The notes under the pieces: generated by a model | Seen by the model: the letters and a program-made list of their open reading frames with translations, nothing else | Database searches by the model: none | Told to the model about the DNA's origin: nothing | NCBI GenBank assembly: GCA_963575745.1 | Contig: CAUYUJ010016060.1 | Coordinates: 380,467-444,466 of the forward strand | Direction of reading: 5' to 3' | Length of the DNA: 64,000 nucleotides | Origin: Prorocentrum cordatum | Lineage: Eukaryota > Sar > Dinophyceae > Prorocentrales > Prorocentraceae | Program-made: the position numbers and the translations under genes | Part shown: in pieces, positions 3,783 to 36,239 of the stretch | Position numbering within the stretch: position 1 is the stretch's first letter | Layout: each line of letters starts with the position of its first letter

Positions 3783-4919
3783 ATGCTACGGTTGTTTTGA
3801 TTGATAGGGGGGGGCTCGGTCCCGAAGGACTTCCCGAGGCCTCTGGGGACCTCTGGAGGCACGGGGAAGCGTTGTGTTCGTGTCCGCGTTTTTGTCATTG
3901 CTTGGGCCCCCAGGGGCCTGGAGGCCCGTGGAGGCTTCAGGGGATGTCCGCTGAGGGAGAGAGGAGGAGGCGGGAGAAGGAGGAGAGAAACTCTACGTTT
4001 CGTTCGATGCGTGGCCCTCTGCCCCTCCCCAGGGCCCCCCTCCCCTGAGCTGTGTCCTGCCGGCCCCGAGGCCCAGAACCAGCCTCCCGGAGGCCACGCA
4101 CGGCGACAGATGGGGCGCCCCGGCTATCGGCTACATTCCCAGGCGCCAGAAGTCTTCGATGTCTGTTGCCTTGGGCGGCGACACAGAAATCAGTTTTTCC
4201 TTCACTTGGGCCGCACTTGGCTCGCACTTGGCCCTTCCTCCTGTTCCTCCTCGCCTTTCCTCTCCGCCTCACCCTTCTCGCTCTTCCCGTCTCCTTGCTG
4301 TGAAGTCGCGACTCCGGTGCAAATCCAGAACCACATGCGTTCCAACATCGGGCCCACGCCGGACAGCCCCAGAGGCCACGTACGCTCCCATGGAGAGCGG
4401 ATACCACAGGCCGGGCGCCCCGACTTCTCCGAGGCGCCGGCGGCGACTACGGCGGCTTCGGCGACGACGGCGGCGCCGCCGCCGCAGTGGACGGCGGCGC
4501 TGGCTGGCCCGCGGCTGCGCCGCTCCCGCTGCCCCGGCTCGAGCGCCGGCGCCGCGCCCGCGCCGTTCCCCCCCGGGCGCGGCCGCGGCGAGCGCGCGGC
4601 GCCCTCTTCCGGGGAGGGGCACAGGCCGCGTTGCTCGTGTGCTACGGCGGAGCGTTGGTGAAGGAATGCGCCCAGCGGTTTGGCAGCCTCGGGGCTCTCG
4701 GCGGTGTGCCAGCCTCGGGGGTGCGCTGCATCAGCTGTGCCTCGTCGAGAGCGTTCTGGGGGTGGCCAGATCGTCCGGAACGGCCGCCCGAGTCCCGACA
4801 TCGTTGTATTGTGGGGGCGGTCGTTCAGGAATGTGCCCATGAGGCGTCAGACCTTGGATGATTTCGTATATGATAAGGGTGGTTCTGGATTCCTTGTTCA
4901 GACAGGTTGAGAGGCTGGG

Positions 4920-23449: not shown

Positions 23450-23641
23450 GTCGGGCGTGTCCCCCTACAGGGGGATTTTCGGCGAAAAATTAGAAATACC
23501 CAAAAATGATATAACAAAAAAAAACGCCAAAAAATATTCAAAAAATAGTCCCCATACTATTTTTGGACTATGTTTGGATTATCTTTCTGGGATATCTTTA
23601 ATTTTTCGACGAAAATCCCCCTGTAGGGGGACAGGCCCGAC
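23450..23641. mobile_element. MITE family M1, intact 192-bp copy
   Basis: Terminal inverted repeats of about 43 bp with two mismatches: both ends read inward GTCGGGC(G/C)TGTCCCCCTAC, continuing AGGGGGATTTTCG and CGAAAAATTA. The interior is AT-rich (AAAAATATTCAAAAAATAG), unlike its GC-rich surroundings. No ORF. Confidence 0.85.
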
Positions 23642-24019
23642 CGAAAGCTGACGCGCAGCCCCCCCCCCCCACACTGCCTGCCGCCGAGTCTCACTCTCAA
23701 GCGCATCCCACCGCCAACTCCTACCGCTGGCCGGCAGGCGACAGCCTACTAGTTTTAAGTCGGGCCTGTCCCCCTACAGGGGGATTTTCGACGAAAAAAA
23801 AGATACTCCAAAAAACCCTAAAAGGTCCAAAAATATTCAAAACACAGTCCCCAGACTATTTTGGGATTATTCTTGTAATCATCTTGAGGGTATTCACCTA
23901 ACAGCGAGGACTGATAGGTTTCTAGTGGGGTCAAAAGAGAGCATCTGATGACTCCCCAGGGGGGTCTGGGCGGGAGCCGGACAGGCGAGGGCCGGGCTCG
24001 TTTTAAGCAAACAGTCATA

Positions 24020-25562: not shown

Positions 25563-25773
25563 TGCGACTGCCGTTGCCACTGCGACTGTCATCGCGAATG
25601 CGACTACGACTGCGAGAACAGCAGAATTATTCTACAACTGGATTCTCATCTGAATATTAAGGGGAATGCTTCCAGATATGCTCCTACACATCGCTGTTAG
25701 GTTGCTTTGCCGGGATAATTTTATTTTTCGACGAAAATCCCCTTGTAGGGGGACACGCCCGACATAATACTAG

Positions 25774-26030
25774 TCGGGGGGGGGCGGGGAGCGCGCCTCG
25801 GAGGAGGAGGCGCGCGTTTTCCGAAGGCCGGGCCAGTGCCACGGAAGGCACGGTGCTCCCCCGCGCCCAGGGGAACCTCCCAGGCGGCCACCAGTTTCGC
25901 GGCCTGGGCATCTTGCGCCTGCTTGGCGGGTGGGGCTGGTTGACGGCAAAGGGGGGTCCCATGGGCGAGGGGAGAAGCATTTGTGCGTTCCGCCATTGGC
26001 GAGCGGGGTCACGACGATACGTAACCGCGC
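25774..26030. repeat. Duplicated flank, copy B
   Basis: Counterpart of copy A, abutting the right end of the 2-kb M1 element. The two M1 elements thus sit between two copies of the same flank. Confidence 0.55.
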
Positions 26031-28949: not shown

Positions 28950-29440
28950 GTGGTGTTGTGTGTGTGTGTGTTGTAGTTACGATCGTGCTTGCATGCGTAG
29001 TTGCGTATGTATGTGTGTATGTTTCTGCGCATGCACAGGTATGTGCATGTGTATGTGTGCATGTATATTCATATGTACACACATGCGTATGATAGTGTAT
29101 GTGCAGATGTCAGGCGTATGAATAAACAGATCGTTATACACGTGTATGCATGTCCCTATGCATGTGTATATGCAATCGGTTACGTGCAAATATATAAGCA
29201 TATATACATATGTGTATATATATGTTTCGATGTGTACAGTTGTAGAATTATATGCGTATGTATATGTGTGTAAATGTATAGGTTACGCATACGTGCACAT
29301 ACATCTATATGACTGTGCAAACGTAATGTTGTTTGTCTATGTATGTACATGTGTGCATGTACATGTGTACGCAACTGTGTGTACATGTGTATGTATACGT
29401 ATATGTGTATGTGCGCATATACTATATATATGTGTACATG
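28950..29440. repeat. TG/TA low-complexity DNA abutting the retrotransposon
   Basis: GTGTGTATGTGTATGTACAT-type sequence with ATAC runs. No gene seen. Confidence 0.9.
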
Positions 29441-29446
29441 CCTCGT

Positions 29447-29544
29447 TGATGAAGTATGCCTGCGTGCCGCGTGTAGGCATAGACATTCCTTGACTATCCG
29501 TAGCCATGTTGGCTCAAGTGCGATGCGAGCATAAAAGCTTGTCA
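29447..29544 (+). repeat. 5' LTR, 98 bp, containing a DinoSL-like 22-mer
   Basis: Very short LTR. Positions 29497-29518 match the 22-nt dinoflagellate spliced leader with one mismatch: it begins TCCGTAGCCAT, then G where the leader has T, and ends TTGGCTCAAG. This leaves 50 bp before (U3-like) and 26 bp after (U5-like) the leader. The mismatch creates an ATG (29506-29508) that runs into a stop within 15 codons. Confidence 0.93.
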
Positions 29545-29562
29545 TGGTAGCGGAGCTGAGAC
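29545..29562 (+). promoter_or_regulatory. Putative tRNA primer-binding site
   Basis: TGGTAGCGGAGC begins at the first base after the 5' LTR. TGG is the complement of a tRNA CCA end, and LTR elements usually place the minus-strand primer site here. The tRNA identity was not determined. Confidence 0.65.
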
Positions 29563-29898
29563 CGATCCACGTTCGGGCAGGCTCACGCGCGGGCAGAGGC
29601 GCAGCAAGTCTGCCCAGCTACGACGCCAGCTCCGTGGCGTCGAACGGCGCGGAGGCGCTCTGGCCGGATCGGGCTCTGAGGGCGCTGGAAGTGCGGGTAG
29701 CCCCTCCTCCGCGCGCCTCGAGCCCGAGGCACAGTCAGAGCGCGTGGGACGTGCGGGTAGCTCCGCCTCCACGCAGCTCAAACCAGAGTGCGCGGGTAGC
29801 ACCGTCATTCAGGAGCCCAAGAACGAGCTCGAGTCCGAGACCGAGCCCAAGACTAAGATTAGGAAGGTGTTCATCGATTGGAACGACCTTTAGGAAAC
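29563..29898 (+). other. Retrotransposon leader region with Ala-Gly-Ser-coding motif repeats
   Basis: The sequence between the primer site and gag has no ATG-initiated ORF in the gag frame. A different frame is open and acidic (rich in Glu-Pro) and closes with TAG at 29891-29893, five bases before the gag ATG. The nonamer GCGGGTAGC occurs at 29693, 29753 and 29792, each time in the same frame, reading Ala-Gly-Ser. The same nonamer recurs inside pol and at the pol stop. The region may be a decayed extra ORF or a structured leader. Confidence 0.5.
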
Positions 29899-31629
29899 AT
29901 GGAGCAGCTACAGCAACAAAACCAACAGCTTACCGCACAACTACAACAGCAAGCAGCAACGATGCAGCAGATGCAGCAGCAGATGACTGAGATGCAGGCC
30001 CAGCTGAAGTCCACGACCGCGGCTTCGTCCAGGGACCCTCAGCCGACCCTCGCGGTGGACACCCGCGTGATCGGCAAGCCTAGGGAGTTCGACGGAGAGA
30101 AGGATTGGAAAGATTGGTCTATCGTCATGCGGTCCTATGCCGCATGCTGCCACGAGCAGCTTGGGACGTTGATGAGGACGGCGGAGCTCTCTGAGGACCG
30201 CGTGGACAACGTGCACCTTTCTCCAGCAGACCGTCAGTTCAGCACCCAGCTGTTCTACATGCTGGTGATGGTGTGCCGTGGCTCTGCCCTCACGCGGGTG
30301 GTCAACCAAGGCACCACTGAGGGCCTCTTGGCGTGGAGGGCGCTCTGCCAGCATCACGAGCCGTCAAGTGCGGCTCGCCATGCCAGCTTACGCTTGGACC
30401 TCTTATCCTTCAACTTCGATGGTGACACCACTGCCAGGTTGGAACAGTTTGAGCGCGACGTCCACCGGTACGAGTTGTCATCCAGCCTATTGCTCGACGA
30501 CGCCATTAAGGTTGGCATCGTCCTCCGGCAGCTGCCAGACGGAGCATTGAAGCAGCACCTGGTCTTGAACATGGACCGGTTCGACACCTGGACGAAGATC
30601 CGCACTGAGATTGAGGCAGTGCGCCGGGCTCAGCAGGCTGCGAGCCATGGCGCTCGCCCGATGGACGTCGACACTCTGGCGCTGCTGAGGCAGGTCCCGG
30701 AGGACGAGCTGACGAGGCAGCTGGCCGCGATGGGGTTCCAGGTGAAGGGCAAGGGCAAGACAGGTGGAGGCAAGGGGAGAGACAAAGCTCCAACGACCAA
30801 TTGCCCCATCTGCGACAAGCCAGGCCACTGGAAGAAGGACTGCTGGTACAACCCGGCCAACAAGGGGGCAGGGTCCGGCAAGGGAGCGCCACCCAAGGGC
30901 GGCAAGGGCAAGGACGCGAAGGACAAGTCCAAGGCGAACAACACCAAGAAGAAGTGTTGGAACTGCGGTGAGACGGGCCACCTTCGAGAAGAGTGCAAGA
31001 AACCAAAGAAGGTGCACTCGATCGAAGAGGTCGTGGACGACCAGGGCGGATCCCTAGGACACCTCTTCCTGCCGCTTTCGGCCGTGAACCTCGCGGGCGT
31101 CTCGTCCGAAAAGGGCCGCACGATGCGCGTTGGCATCGACTCCGGTGCTGCTGTGACGGCCGTGCCGGATTGTCACTGCAAAGGGTACCCACTGTACAAG
31201 AATACGCCCGGCACCGGCAGGTCCTACGAGAGCGCCGCCGGGGAGAAGATTTTGGATCGAGGTGAACGGCGTCTACTCTGTCGTGCGGACGGTCGTTTAC
31301 GAGGACTGCGAGCGCGCGCGTGCAAGGTGAAGAAGCCCTTGCTGAGCGTGTACGACATGTGCAAGGCAGGACAGATGGTGGTCTTCGACTTTGACTCCAA
31401 TGGCAACGACAGGAGCCATGCCATCCACAAGGCGACCGGCGAGAAGACCAACTTTCAGCTCAGGAACAGGGTGCGGGAGTTGGATCTGGAGGTCGTGCCG
31501 CACGGCCAGGCAGAGAAGATCGCCACCAAGATGTTGGACGACCAGAAGCAGCAGTCCAAGAAGGTGCAGGACGAGGCCGCGAAGTTGCAGGATTTGTGCC
31601 CTTTCGAGGGGCAGGTCCTGTGGCCGTAA
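29899..31629 (+). CDS. gag-pro: Copia Gag-protease polyprotein (576 aa)
   Basis: Structural and protease part of the element. The ATG at 29899 is chosen because the open frame upstream of it starts only at a TTG. Residues 1-40 are Gln-rich with heptad character (coiled coil). They are followed by a Copia-type Gag domain (about residues 60-250) and a Gly/Lys-rich linker. Two zinc knuckles of the form C-X2-C-X4-H-X4-C lie at residues 302-315 (30802-30843) and 353-366 (30955-30996), expected to bind RNA. The aspartic protease motif Asp-Ser-Gly-Ala is at residues 414-417 (31138-31149). No stop interrupts this frame. Only 8 codons remain after the point where the pol frame can be entered, and the frame ends TAA. 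Gag, zinc-knuckle and protease roles follow from family knowledge. Confidence 0.92.
   Translation: MEQLQQQNQQLTAQLQQQAATMQQMQQQMTEMQAQLKSTTAASSRDPQPTLAVDTRVIGKPREFDGEKDWKDWSIVMRSYAACCHEQLGTLMRTAELSEDRVDNVHLSPADRQFSTQLFYMLVMVCRGSALTRVVNQGTTEGLLAWRALCQHHEPSSAARHASLRLDLLSFNFDGDTTARLEQFERDVHRYELSSSLLLDDAIKVGIVLRQLPDGALKQHLVLNMDRFDTWTKIRTEIEAVRRAQQAASHGARPMDVDTLALLRQVPEDELTRQLAAMGFQVKGKGKTGGGKGRDKAPTTNCPICDKPGHWKKDCWYNPANKGAGSGKGAPPKGGKGKDAKDKSKANNTKKKCWNCGETGHLREECKKPKKVHSIEEVVDDQGGSLGHLFLPLSAVNLAGVSSEKGRTMRVGIDSGAAVTAVPDCHCKGYPLYKNTPGTGRSYESAAGEKILDRGERRLLCRADGRLRGLRARACKVKKPLLSVYDMCKAGQMVVFDFDSNGNDRSHAIHKATGEKTNFQLRNRVRELDLEVVPHGQAEKIATKMLDDQKQQSKKVQDEAAKLQDLCPFEGQVLWP
31599..31605 (+). promoter_or_regulatory. 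Candidate -1 ribosomal frameshift heptamer
   Basis: C CCT TTC in the gag frame fits the X XXY YYZ slippery pattern and lies exactly where gag-pro must pass into the -1 pol frame. A perfect palindrome with 9-bp arms (GCCGCCCCG) at 31646-31663 lies 40 nt downstream. That is farther than the usual 5-9 nt, so the stimulator is uncertain. Confidence 0.45.
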
Positions 31630-34600
31630 GTCCAACTCCGACTCAGCCGCCCCGCGGGGCGGCAGGGCCCAGCGACGTGGAGGGCCCAAAGGAGGACAAC
31701 TCGGAGAAGGACCAGTCGCTCGAGATGCACCCTGTCGAGGGCGACCCTGCAGTACCACAAGCTGCGTTTGGCCAGAGCCTTCCGGGGAACCCGAATGTTC
31801 CAGGTGCGGCAGATGAGCCTCACGACATGGACGCCGAACAGCCTACACTGCGACCTCGGCGAGCCCCGGCTGAACCTACGCAGGCGGAGCGCGACGCGCA
31901 CGAGTGCGCGGGCCACATGCCGTACCGCTCCTGGTGCCGAGCGTGCGTGGCTGGACATGGGCGTGCTGACCAGCACCACCCTGTACCAGGCGATCCTCGT
32001 GGAGTACCTGTCGTGGCGTGCGGTTACGGCTACCTGGAGCGTCGTGAAGATTGTCCGCCAGGGGGGAGCCCCTCCCCGATCCTTGTCACCAAGGACGGAT
32101 CTCGTCCTGGAGCTGTCACGGCGGACGTGCTCCCATGCAAAGGGACTGGCGACCCCGCCTGTGTGCCTGCGCTGCTTCGTGCGTATGTTGCTGCCGGCCA
32201 CCACAAGTTCATCGCGAGGTCGGACGGTGAACCAGCGATCGTGGACCTTAAGAGCCGGGCGGTGGCGACAGCACGAGCACGCCACAGCATGGGCGTCATC
32301 CTCGAGGAGACTCCGGAGGGGGACTCGCAGGCGAACGGGCTGATCGAGAGCGCCGTCCGCGATGTGAAGGCGACGGCTCGCACGCTCCGATTCGCAGCTC
32401 AAGAGCTCCATGGGTCCAGCATCGGACCCAAGCATCCGATACTTCCATGGCTCGTTCGTTTCGCTGGAGACGTCATCACTCGAGGACAGCGGGGTGCAGA
32501 TGGCATGGCGCCGTACCAGCGCCGCACCGGCCGCGTGTACAGGCGAGCACTCCCGACCTTCAGTGAGAAGGTCTTGTACCTGCCAACGGGGAAGCACGAC
32601 AGTAGGATCCAGGGGCGATGAAACAGCGGACTGTTCGTGAACATCGTGGAGAGGAACAACGAGCTCTTCATCGCCACGCGCGACGGCGACAAGAGGGCGA
32701 AGGCTGTCCAGCGGTTCGCTGCTGCCGAGCGGGCCGACGCGGACCTCCTGGCGAACATACGTGGGACGCCCTGGCAGCCGATCCCCAGCGTCGGCTTGGA
32801 CGTCGTCCCGACCGTCATCTACGCTGACCCCGTGGTGAGCGAGGACGCGTTGCCACCAGGGCCGGCCCCTGGGCAGCCTGCCCCATCTGGGCGGCAGGTT
32901 TACATACGTCGTCACGTGGAGTTGCAGCGGCATGGCTTCACTGAAGGCTGTGCCGGATGCGACACCGCGCGTGCGGGCACAGCCGCGCGCCCCCACAGCG
33001 CAGCCTGCCGCGACAGGATCGAGCAGGCCATGATGGCAGACGAGGCTGGACGCCCACGGATCACGGAGGCGTTTTTGAGACGTGGCGACGCCGTGGCTGC
33101 AGGTAGCCCTGCGCCCGGCGACGCTGTGGCCGCGGGTAGCCCCGCGCCTGGCGGCACTGTGGCCGCGGGCAGCTCCGCGCCTAGTGCCCCGGCGGTCGCC
33201 GGCATCCCAGCGCCCGTGGACCCGGCGGCTGCGGTTAGCCCCGCGCCGGAGGTCCCTATGGAGGCCTCCGCTCCATCACCTGCGGTCCTTGCAGCGGGTA
33301 GCACCGCGCGAGGGCGCCTGGAGGCTGCGGGAAGCTCCGCGCCTTCGGGCATGGCCGTGCGCAGGCCTGCGGAAGTGCCGCTGGAGGGCGCATCGCCGCC
33401 TAGGAGGGCGCGCCGGGGGGCTGACGTGGAGATCGGCGGCGTGGATTTGACCAGCGAGTCGACGCACTTTCTTGGCGAGCTCTCTTCGGTGTTGTCTTCG
33501 TTTGGCGTGTGCCGGACAGGCGTTGCAGGGGTTTTCGGGCCAGGGCGGTTCACGAGCCGCTCGTCTGCTTTCGACCCCCCGCCTGGCACTGCCATGGACG
33601 TCCGTTCTGGATACGATTTCACACAGGCTGCCGAGCGAGAGCGGGCCCGCGAGACCAGACAGAGGGAGAGACCGGCGCTGCTCGTCGGTTCGCCTCCCAA
33701 CGTGGCCCTTTCTGCCATGCAAGGCCTCGCTCCGGACAGCCAGGAGTGGAAGCAGAAACTTGCAGAGGGCCTCACTCATCTTGAATTCGTTTGTGATCTG
33801 TACAAAGACCAAATGAAGGACGGCTTGTTCTTCTTGCACGAGCATTCGGCCTCTTCTGCAAGTTGGGACCTGTGGATGGTCCAGGAGATCGCTGGCATGG
33901 AGGGCGTGCGCACCGTCCTTGGAGATCAGTGCCCCTACGGCCTTTGGTCTGTTGATCTGTACGGGCCGGCTTTCGTCCAGAAGGCTACCAGATGGTTTAC
34001 CAATTCTGCGGCCATCGCACGTGCCGTCGGCAGCCGGTGCACTAACCGAGGCTGCCCGGACAACGCGCGGAAGCATAGGCACTGCCAGCTGATCGAAAAC
34101 CCCCGGACTTGGAGGGGTAGAGAACGCTACCCCCTCAAGCTCGCGACTGCGATCCTCGAGGGATTGTGGGGGGAGCTGAACGCTAAGCACGTGTTGTTCT
34201 CATTTGAGGCGGGCGCTCACGTTGATGAGCCCGACGCCTGGGACATCCACCCGGAGTGGTACGGCCACGTCGTCGACGCCACGACTGGCGTGAAGTTGGA
34301 CGCAGTGCTTGTGTCCAAGGCCCGCGGTGAGGAGATGGACTTCCTCAGCGGCCTGGGCGCGTACTCCTACGACACCGTCGACAGGTGCATCGAGGAGACA
34401 GGGCGGCGCCCCATGCCCACCGGATGGGTTGACGTCAACAAGGGGCAGCCCGACGCACCTCAAGTGCGAAGCCGGCTCGTGGTGAAAGAAACGAGGTATC
34501 ACACGAACCTCGACACGAGCGGCGGCAGCAGCTTCAGCCAGACACCGCCCTACGAGGCGTTACGGATGCTGTGTAGCTGCCAGATGACACCCGCCAGCCA

Positions 34601-36002
34601 GATGCAGGTAGACTACGTCATCATCTTCATTGACATCACCCGTGCACACCCTCATTGTAAGATGCGCCGTAAAGTCTGGGTGGTGTTGCCGCCAGAGGAC
34701 CCCGAGGCGGCGGAACCTGGCGCGCGTGGACTCCTTGAGCGGAGCCTGTGCGGCTTGCGCGACGCCGGACAGTCGTTCGAGCTGCTCGTCCGCGAGACCA
34801 TGGAGGCCCTCTGTTTCAAGGCAGGCCTGTGGTGCGGCGTAGTGTTCTTCCACGAGCAGCGGCAGATCCAGGCGTACGTGTGCGGTGATAACTTCGTAGC
34901 GCGTGGATCTCGTGCAGAGGTCCGCTGGTTCCACGAATCACTATCTGTTCACATGTGGGCCAAGGTGGAGGGCATTCTCGGCCCGGATCCATCGCGAGGC
35001 GACTCCCTGGAGGTCGTCTGCCTCAACCGGGTGTTCCGGTATGTCAGCGCAGCCGGAAACGAACCCGAGCGCATCGAGATCGAAGCGGATGCACGGCATG
35101 TGGAGATCTTGCTCCACCAGGCCGGCCTCTCTGCGGGGCGCAGCGTGCCCCTCAACACGCCGGGCGCTGCGGCGAAGGACGTGGACGTCGGGGGGCCGCT
35201 GGGCGCCGAGGCGGCGACGCTGTTCAGAAGCATGACGACGAGGGCGCAGTATCTCAGCGAGGACCGCCCTGACATTCGCTTTGCTTGCAAGGAGATTGCC
35301 CGCTTCATGGCGGAACCCTGCGAGCTGGGGGCGAAGATGCTCAAGAGGCTGTGTCGCTATCTTCTGGGAGTCCCACGACTCGTCCAGAGGATGGAGCGGC
35401 AGGAGGTGCCGACGTTCATGGACGGCATCTCGGATGCAGACTTCGCTGGCTGTTCAAGGACACGGAAGAGCACGAGCTGCCACGCGATCAAGATGGGCAG
35501 CCATACGATACGCTTTGCGAGTGCCACGCAGAGCGTGATCGCACAGAGCAGCGGGGAGAGCGAGTACTATTCCCTCGTGCGGTGCGCTTCGGCACTCATC
35601 GGCATGGGCAACTTGATGCGCGACCTCGGGCGCGAGTTGCCCCTGCGCCTCCTGGGAGACGCAACCGCCGCGAGCGGCATGGCTTGCAGGCGGGGCGCTG
35701 GGCGAGTACGTCACATCGAAGTTGGGACGTTGTGGCTCCAGCAGATCATCACTGGGGAGAAGATGGTCCTGGGCCGGAGGCCCGGCAAGGAGAACGAGGC
35801 AGACCTCGGCACCAAGCACCTGGCTCTACGCGAGCTGTGGGAGTGCTTGGCCCGGCTTGGCTTCGTCGCCATGGGCGGCCGTTCCGAGAAGTCCCTGCGT
35901 GCCTCCATCGCGCACTTGGGCCTCAAGTTGGAGGCGGGGGCGAGCGGCGCCGCGGCTGCGGCGGCGACGGCAGCAGCAGGCGCGCGCAGGTTGCGCGGGT
36001 AG
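31605..36002 (+). CDS. pol: Copia Pol: integrase, reverse transcriptase, RNase H (interrupted by TGA)
   Basis: Open in the -1 frame relative to gag-pro, with no own ATG near its start, so it should be made as a Gag-Pol fusion. Integrase zinc-binding His/Cys residues are at 31899-31950. The acidic triad positions are 32223-32225 (Asp, in SDGE) and 32346-32348 (Glu, in QANGLIE). The expected first Asp is Gly (32022-32024, in CGYGYL). After integrase comes an Ala/Pro/Gly/Ser-rich linker with GDAVAAGSPAP-like repeats (about 33085-33360). RT spans about 34270-34990; the YxDD box reads CGDNF (34884-34895), so the second Asp is Asn. RNase H has Asp (35439), Glu (35556) and Asp (35658). TGA at 32619-32621 interrupts an otherwise continuous frame. 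The TAG stop is at 36000-36002. About 1465 codons. Probably a dead copy. Confidence 0.88.
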
Positions 36003-36090
36003 CTCCGCCTTCGCTGCGTGCGGCCCGGCGGGCGCAGGCAGACGGGAAGCCCTGAGTGCGCTGCTGGTGCGCCCTCACGGCTTGGAGGGC

Positions 36091-36188
36091 TGATGAAGTA
36101 TGCCTGCGTGCCGCGTGTATGCATAGATATTCTTTGACTATCCGTAGCCATTTGGGCTCAAGTGCGATGCGAGCATAAAAGCTTGTCG
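36091..36188 (+). repeat. 3' LTR, 98 bp, containing a DinoSL-like 22-mer
   Basis: Partner of the 29447 LTR. The leader-like 22-mer is at 36141-36162, again with one mismatch but at a different base (G instead of T two positions further on), so the consensus of the two LTRs is exactly the DinoSL. It is followed by the CTCGT target duplication. Confidence 0.93.
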
Positions 36189-36239
36189 CTCGTCCTGCTC
36201 CTATCGTTGTACTAGAATGGGGGGCGATACCCAGCAAAC

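Follow-up and report, generated by a model that had tools for sequence, protein, structure and literature searches.

The window, as we call the whole 64-kb stretch of DNA analysed here, carries a 6.7-kb LTR retrotransposon insertion of the Ty1/copia type (29447-36188, + strand), and within each of its LTRs lies a 22-nt sequence one mismatch away from the dinoflagellate spliced leader (DinoSL); the element is probably a Ty1/copia-type retrotransposon of a dinoflagellate whose R region starts with a captured leader. Trans-splicing followed by reverse transcription is the best explanation for a leader in this place, and a replication cycle dependent on trans-splicing may be the larger interest of such an LTR.

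Structure of the inserted element

The features of the insertion are collected in Table 1. Its two LTRs, 98 bp each, are paired by repeat detection (pair D14, 95% over 97 nt), differ at 6 of 98 positions, a corrected distance of about 0.064, and are bordered by a perfect 5-bp target duplication. The domain order, gag-protease-integrase-RT-RNase H, is that of Ty1/copia, with integrase-like motifs at 31899-32357 followed by RT/RNase H at 34422-35819; the RVT_2 match (E 2.6e-7, 30.9 bits) falls just below the curated cut-off of 31.6. The integrase-like part of pol has no Pfam match, and what we take to be its integrase-like motifs are HECAGH...WCRACV at 31899, a D motif at 32214 and an E motif at 32322; GIDSGAAVT at 31132, in the gag-protease frame, is presumably a protease-like motif. 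We likewise assume that the sequence adjoining the 5' LTR is initiator-Met-tRNA-like and thus a putative primer site, and that TTGAC at 29490-29494 in the U3-like part is possibly a branch-point-like motif, judged by the consensus for such sites. A tRNA scan of the 64-kb window found no host tRNA genes, and an Rfam scan likewise gave no matches.

Because the in-frame TGA breaks pol, this copy of the element is probably dead. No further copies of the LTR or of the element were found in the 64-kb window by blastn. The element lies directly downstream of a stretch rich in TG/TA repeats (29004-29446) with 36% GC, against 61% for the window, and repeat copies containing TCCCCCTACAGGGGGA or near forms of it together with TTTTCG[AG]CGAAAA occur in both orientations at 23450-23641, 23745-23815 and 25713-25789.

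Table 1. Features of the insertion, in window coordinates
Feature	Position	Strand	Basis or remark
Target-site duplication CTCGT (left)	29442..29446		identical to 36189-36193
5' LTR, 98 bp, TG...CA	29447..29544	+	repeat detection, pairwise comparison
U3-like part, 50 bp	29447..29496	+	sequence
Spliced-leader 22-mer in 5' LTR, one mismatch (G for T, LTR position 62)	29497..29518	+	sequence match
U5-like part, 26 bp, starts TGCGATG; no GT donor adjoining leader	29519..29544	+	sequence
Primer-binding-site-like TGGTAGCGGAGC	29545..29556	+	directly 3' of 5' LTR
gag-protease frame, ATG 29899, zinc knuckles 30802 and 30955	29863..31629	+	Pfam zf-CCHC, E 4e-8
Integrase-like part of pol, in-frame TGA end at 32619-32621	31395..32621	+	motifs only
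Reverse transcriptase-RNase H part of pol, 1126 aa	32622..36002	+	Pfam RVT_2, motifs, 82 relatives
Purine-rich stretch GGCTTGGAGGGC, possible polypurine tract	36079..36090	+	upstream of 3' LTR
3' LTR, 98 bp, TG...CG	36091..36188	+	repeat detection, pairwise comparison
Spliced-leader 22-mer in 3' LTR, one mismatch (G for T, LTR position 64)	36141..36162	+	sequence match
Target-site duplication CTCGT (right)	36189..36193		identical to 29442-29446

The spliced leader in both LTRs

The published DinoSL is DCCGTAGCCATTTTGGCTCAAG, where D stands for T, A or G (PMC7245778; here as below, papers are cited from those parts of them that were available). The left LTR holds TCCGTAGCCATGTTGGCTCAAG and the right LTR TCCGTAGCCATTTGGGCTCAAG, both at LTR positions 51-72 and each with a single mismatch to DinoSL, at a different position in each LTR; this confirms what the earlier note had reported of the two 22-mers, and its division of the LTR into 50, 22 and 26 bp is exact. 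A search of the 64 kb with the 21-mer, allowing up to three mismatches, returned exactly two matches, one per LTR, and none of 100 dinucleotide shuffles contained any match to the 21-mer; with uniform bases, about 2e-6 matches with one mismatch are expected per window. The shuffles rule out chance resemblance, a reading that we regard as hardly credible: the leader in the LTRs is a real feature, for which chance is a very unlikely source.

The two LTRs of one insertion come from a single template. Because the 22-mers occupy the same place in both LTRs and their mismatches are private to each, the comparison supports the presence of a leader in the LTR before the present copy inserted, and we infer an exact leader as the simplest state before insertion. 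The earlier claim that the ancestral LTR probably held the exact leader stands as regards presence, while exactness would be read from two sequences, and the left mismatch may be a host variant. Since one earlier-reported Polarella transcript has the leader ATCGTAGCCATGTTGGCTCAAG, which shares the substitution of the left LTR and differs at its 5' end, the left mismatch might be no mutation at all; the authors failed to recover that transcript again (PMC7245778).

Within the present copy the leader shows no excess conservation: the LTR pair differs at 2 of 22 leader positions and at 4 of the 76 others, and two or more of six differences would fall inside the leader with P = 0.41, so that the differences would match neutral decay after insertion, as expected. 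Both private leader differences (29508 and 36154) put G for T inside the 4-base TTTT tract (P about 0.018, a post hoc value). A search of the window for the 15-nt relic with up to three mismatches found only the two LTRs, and with 2.1 matches expected by chance it had no power.

The junction after the leader

In both LTRs the leader runs directly into TGCGATG. Because TGCG and not a GT donor follows the 22-mer, the LTR leader looks like a leader joined to an exon, as though the LTR had been copied from RNA after splicing. A leader-RNA gene inside the LTR was considered and rejected, since in such a gene a GT donor and then a short intron would be expected after the 22-nt exon, and TG was found in both LTRs. 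The earlier proposal of a captured leader gains from this junction, from the leader's presence before insertion and from its plausible position for an RNA 5' end; it is partly supported by the one copy at hand. Its placement of the leader where an RNA 5' end could map is plausible for a sequence lying between U3-like and U5-like parts.

A leader search of contigs from prokaryote genomes found two contigs (L002 and L003), neither visibly an LTR element. In L003 the leader (4334-4354, - strand) sits in an rDNA spacer, flanked by eukaryotic LSU and SSU rRNA genes that Rfam confirms, and GTACGC comes next, a splice donor of the kind seen in leader-RNA genes; the contig is filed under a Dehalococcoidia bacterium and is contamination of that genome. 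L002 has an exact leader beside a (TCA)n tract (32-52, + strand), at the end of a 3-kb contig also filed as Dehalococcoidia, perhaps a chimera or a contaminant.

Among viral contigs, the leader, sought both exactly and with three positions left free, was found only in L001 (IMG/VR contig 3300045993_001077), which contains two exact dinoflagellate leaders, is otherwise of 14-19% GC, appears giant-virus-like and has one gene matching Pfam Glyco_transf_41. The second of these leaders heads a GC-rich gene, a 50%-GC stretch (1936-2913, - strand) that includes a 254-aa frame, and is followed by GCCTAA; the arrangement looks like what retroposition of a trans-spliced dinoflagellate mRNA into the genome of a virus would leave. 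Neither the U5 nor the U3 pieces had an exact match in viral contigs, and searches of these contigs with pol (2 stretches), with one relative, P0029 (1), and with an alignment of 25 of the 82 relatives (37) yielded none confirmed as a relative.

Relatives of pol

Relatives were sought with the RT half of pol (frame residues 440-1126), the 7993 candidates sharing most words being scored. At least 82 protein relatives were found, 74 of which list PF07727 and 8 of which do not. The closest among the matches listed is a Prorocentrum cordatum protein, 94% identical, and the DNA very probably belongs to this species or a near relation of it; also among the matches listed, other Prorocentrum proteins and those of Amphidinium carterae are 40-54% identical to the RT half, with P0005, P0008, P0009 and P0011 of Prorocentrum at 46-52% and P0003 and P0010 coming from Amphidinium. 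A sister group of copia-like proteins (P0020-P0077) is 31-38% identical to that of the window; one of its members is filed as a Chromatiales bacterium, and the true hosts of the group are probably eukaryotes. No leader-coded peptides occur in the 82 relatives, a result of little weight given that a gene model need not extend into the LTR, and translated LTR peptides, searched against the protein database, gave 3 and 24 candidates, none with E of 10 or less.

Origin of the leader and replication of the element

The RNA of an ancestral element would have received the leader through trans-splicing by the host; starting at the tRNA-like primer site, minus-strand strong-stop synthesis would then have copied U5 together with the leader, which transfer of the strand to the 3' LTR would have fixed between U3 and U5. 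Strong-stop synthesis and strand transfer are steps of the known cycle of LTR elements. Given a U3 of only 50 bp and what is generally known of dinoflagellate gene arrays, the element may rely on read-through transcription and trans-splicing for its own 5' end. None of the 10 neighbouring frames scanned, taken from 100 frames of at least 180 aa that include the element's own, matched a Pfam family.

An exact-match replication model was run on the consensus LTR. With an RNA start exactly at the leader, the modelled LTR is unchanged at 98 bp; with use of the internal one of the leader's two AGs and transfer of the full 5' end, it becomes a 113-bp LTR with a nested relic, internal re-splicing being predicted to give an RNA whose 5' end is the leader plus CCATTTTGGCTCAAG. 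Nested relics, for which LTRs of 113 or 128 bp would be expected, are absent from the element, both LTRs of which are un-nested at 98 bp. Because they are un-nested, the model favours an RNA start at the leader, strand transfer at an early point, or only a small number of cycles after capture, which we leave unranked; the single leader is best accounted for if later RNAs had their first nucleotide where the leader has its own, whether through trans-splicing at its terminal AG, by which the sequence is restored unchanged, or from a start site there. Dinoflagellate retrogenes are reported to be trans-spliced again inside the relic with loss of its first seven nucleotides, so that a 15-nt relic stands behind the new leader in their transcripts; a truncated form, also noted, hints at the use of TG within the leader as an acceptor, and among 6544 relic-bearing retrogenes, 95% have a single relic and 5% at least two (PMC12014239). 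This published internal re-splicing fits an un-nested LTR poorly, unless the strand is usually transferred early or the element has gone through few cycles after the capture. Terminal-AG splicing would have escaped that survey, because retrogenes are defined there, in the part of the paper available, by the relic, and such splicing leaves none (PMC12014239). Set beside these retrogenes, whose genomic leaders receive a new one, the earlier suggestion that the element may now supply its own leader is no more than a possibility.

It is possible, though we hold the idea only tentatively and incline against it, that the R region renews itself: a promoterless element contained in a longer host transcript would be trans-spliced at the AG of its own leader and so receive a fresh leader at each cycle. 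If so, the RNA 5' end would equal the leader in the 3' LTR, strand transfer would be possible, and host leader RNA would rewrite part of the element's genome every generation.

LTR retrotransposons require identical sequence at both ends of their RNA. Trans-splicing, which replaces the 5' ends of mRNAs, is a problem for such elements that would disappear once the LTR itself contained the leader, and a leader in the LTR would tie the replication of a retrotransposon to trans-splicing. It would also suggest where a reverse transcriptase in contact with leader-bearing RNAs comes from, a suspected cause of the many dinoflagellate retrogenes.

Other routes to a leader-bearing LTR have to be weighed against capture into the R region. 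The RNA may have been trans-spliced only once, the leader being a fossil without a role ever since and transcription being driven by an unrelated LTR promoter; the lack of excess leader conservation in the present copy fits this, as does the frequency with which leaders have been captured into dinoflagellate DNA (PMC7245778, PMC12014239), but a leader apparently exact, or nearly so, at the time of insertion, and placed where R could plausibly begin in so short an LTR, does not, and we consider a one-off capture with no later role unlikely. Selection for mimicry, in which the element's own transcript begins with DinoSL or the TTTT box serves as a promoter and host trans-splicing is not needed, strikes us as less probable again. 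Mimicry has been a matter of speculation for an RNA virus of dinoflagellates whose 5' end bears DinoSL (PMC10235124), and a promoter role in the transcription of retrocopies has been proposed for the TTTT box of DinoSL (PMC12014239); however, genomic leaders in the surveyed retrogenes receive a new leader (PMC12014239), the TTTT tract is mutated in both LTRs of the present copy, and capture remains the simplest source of the sequence.

We find it very improbable that a leader-RNA gene or a host retrocopy, and not the element's own trans-spliced RNA, gave rise to the LTR or recombined with it. Leader-RNA genes do exist in dinoflagellate genomes, with one in the rDNA spacer of L003, but in the element no GT donor comes after the 22-mer and the 26 bp of U5 run straight into the primer-like site; a host retrocopy is less well excluded than a leader-RNA gene. 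Capture from the element's own trans-spliced RNA thus remains the reading that we prefer.

Comparison with known systems

Ty1/copia LTR retrotransposons are reported in dinoflagellates, which also express them (PMC6050394, PMC3942190, PMC5890265). The element resembles Ty1/copia in the TG...CA ends of its LTR, its 5-bp target duplication, its gene order and, putatively, its primer-like site; unlike the dinoflagellate Ty1/copia elements, so far as the available parts of those accounts describe them, its LTR measures a mere 98 bp and has the 22-nt spliced leader of the host at its centre. No description of a spliced leader inside an LTR was found in the parts of the literature examined.

Elements that acquire a host leader are known from other settings. 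Cer1 of C. elegans is also an LTR element whose RNA can receive a spliced leader, but SL1 is found on its spliced 2.4-kb mRNA (which occurs with and without it) and not on the 8-kb gag-pol RNA, and the available text describes no leader in the LTR (PMC3315495). The dinoflagellate RNA virus dinoRNAV, too, is a selfish element, and its RNA has the host DinoSL at the 5' end; it is, however, a positive-strand RNA virus and not an LTR element (PMC10235124).

That retroposed genes of dinoflagellates can contain relic leaders is established, and in these DinoRL retrogenes, as presumably in the element, a leader acquired by trans-splicing has returned to the genome (PMC12014239, PMC7245778). As described in the parts of those papers available, the retrogenes derive from host mRNAs and bear the leader at the 5' end only, whereas here it stands at both ends of a mobile element and, unlike theirs, would be copied anew at every replication cycle.
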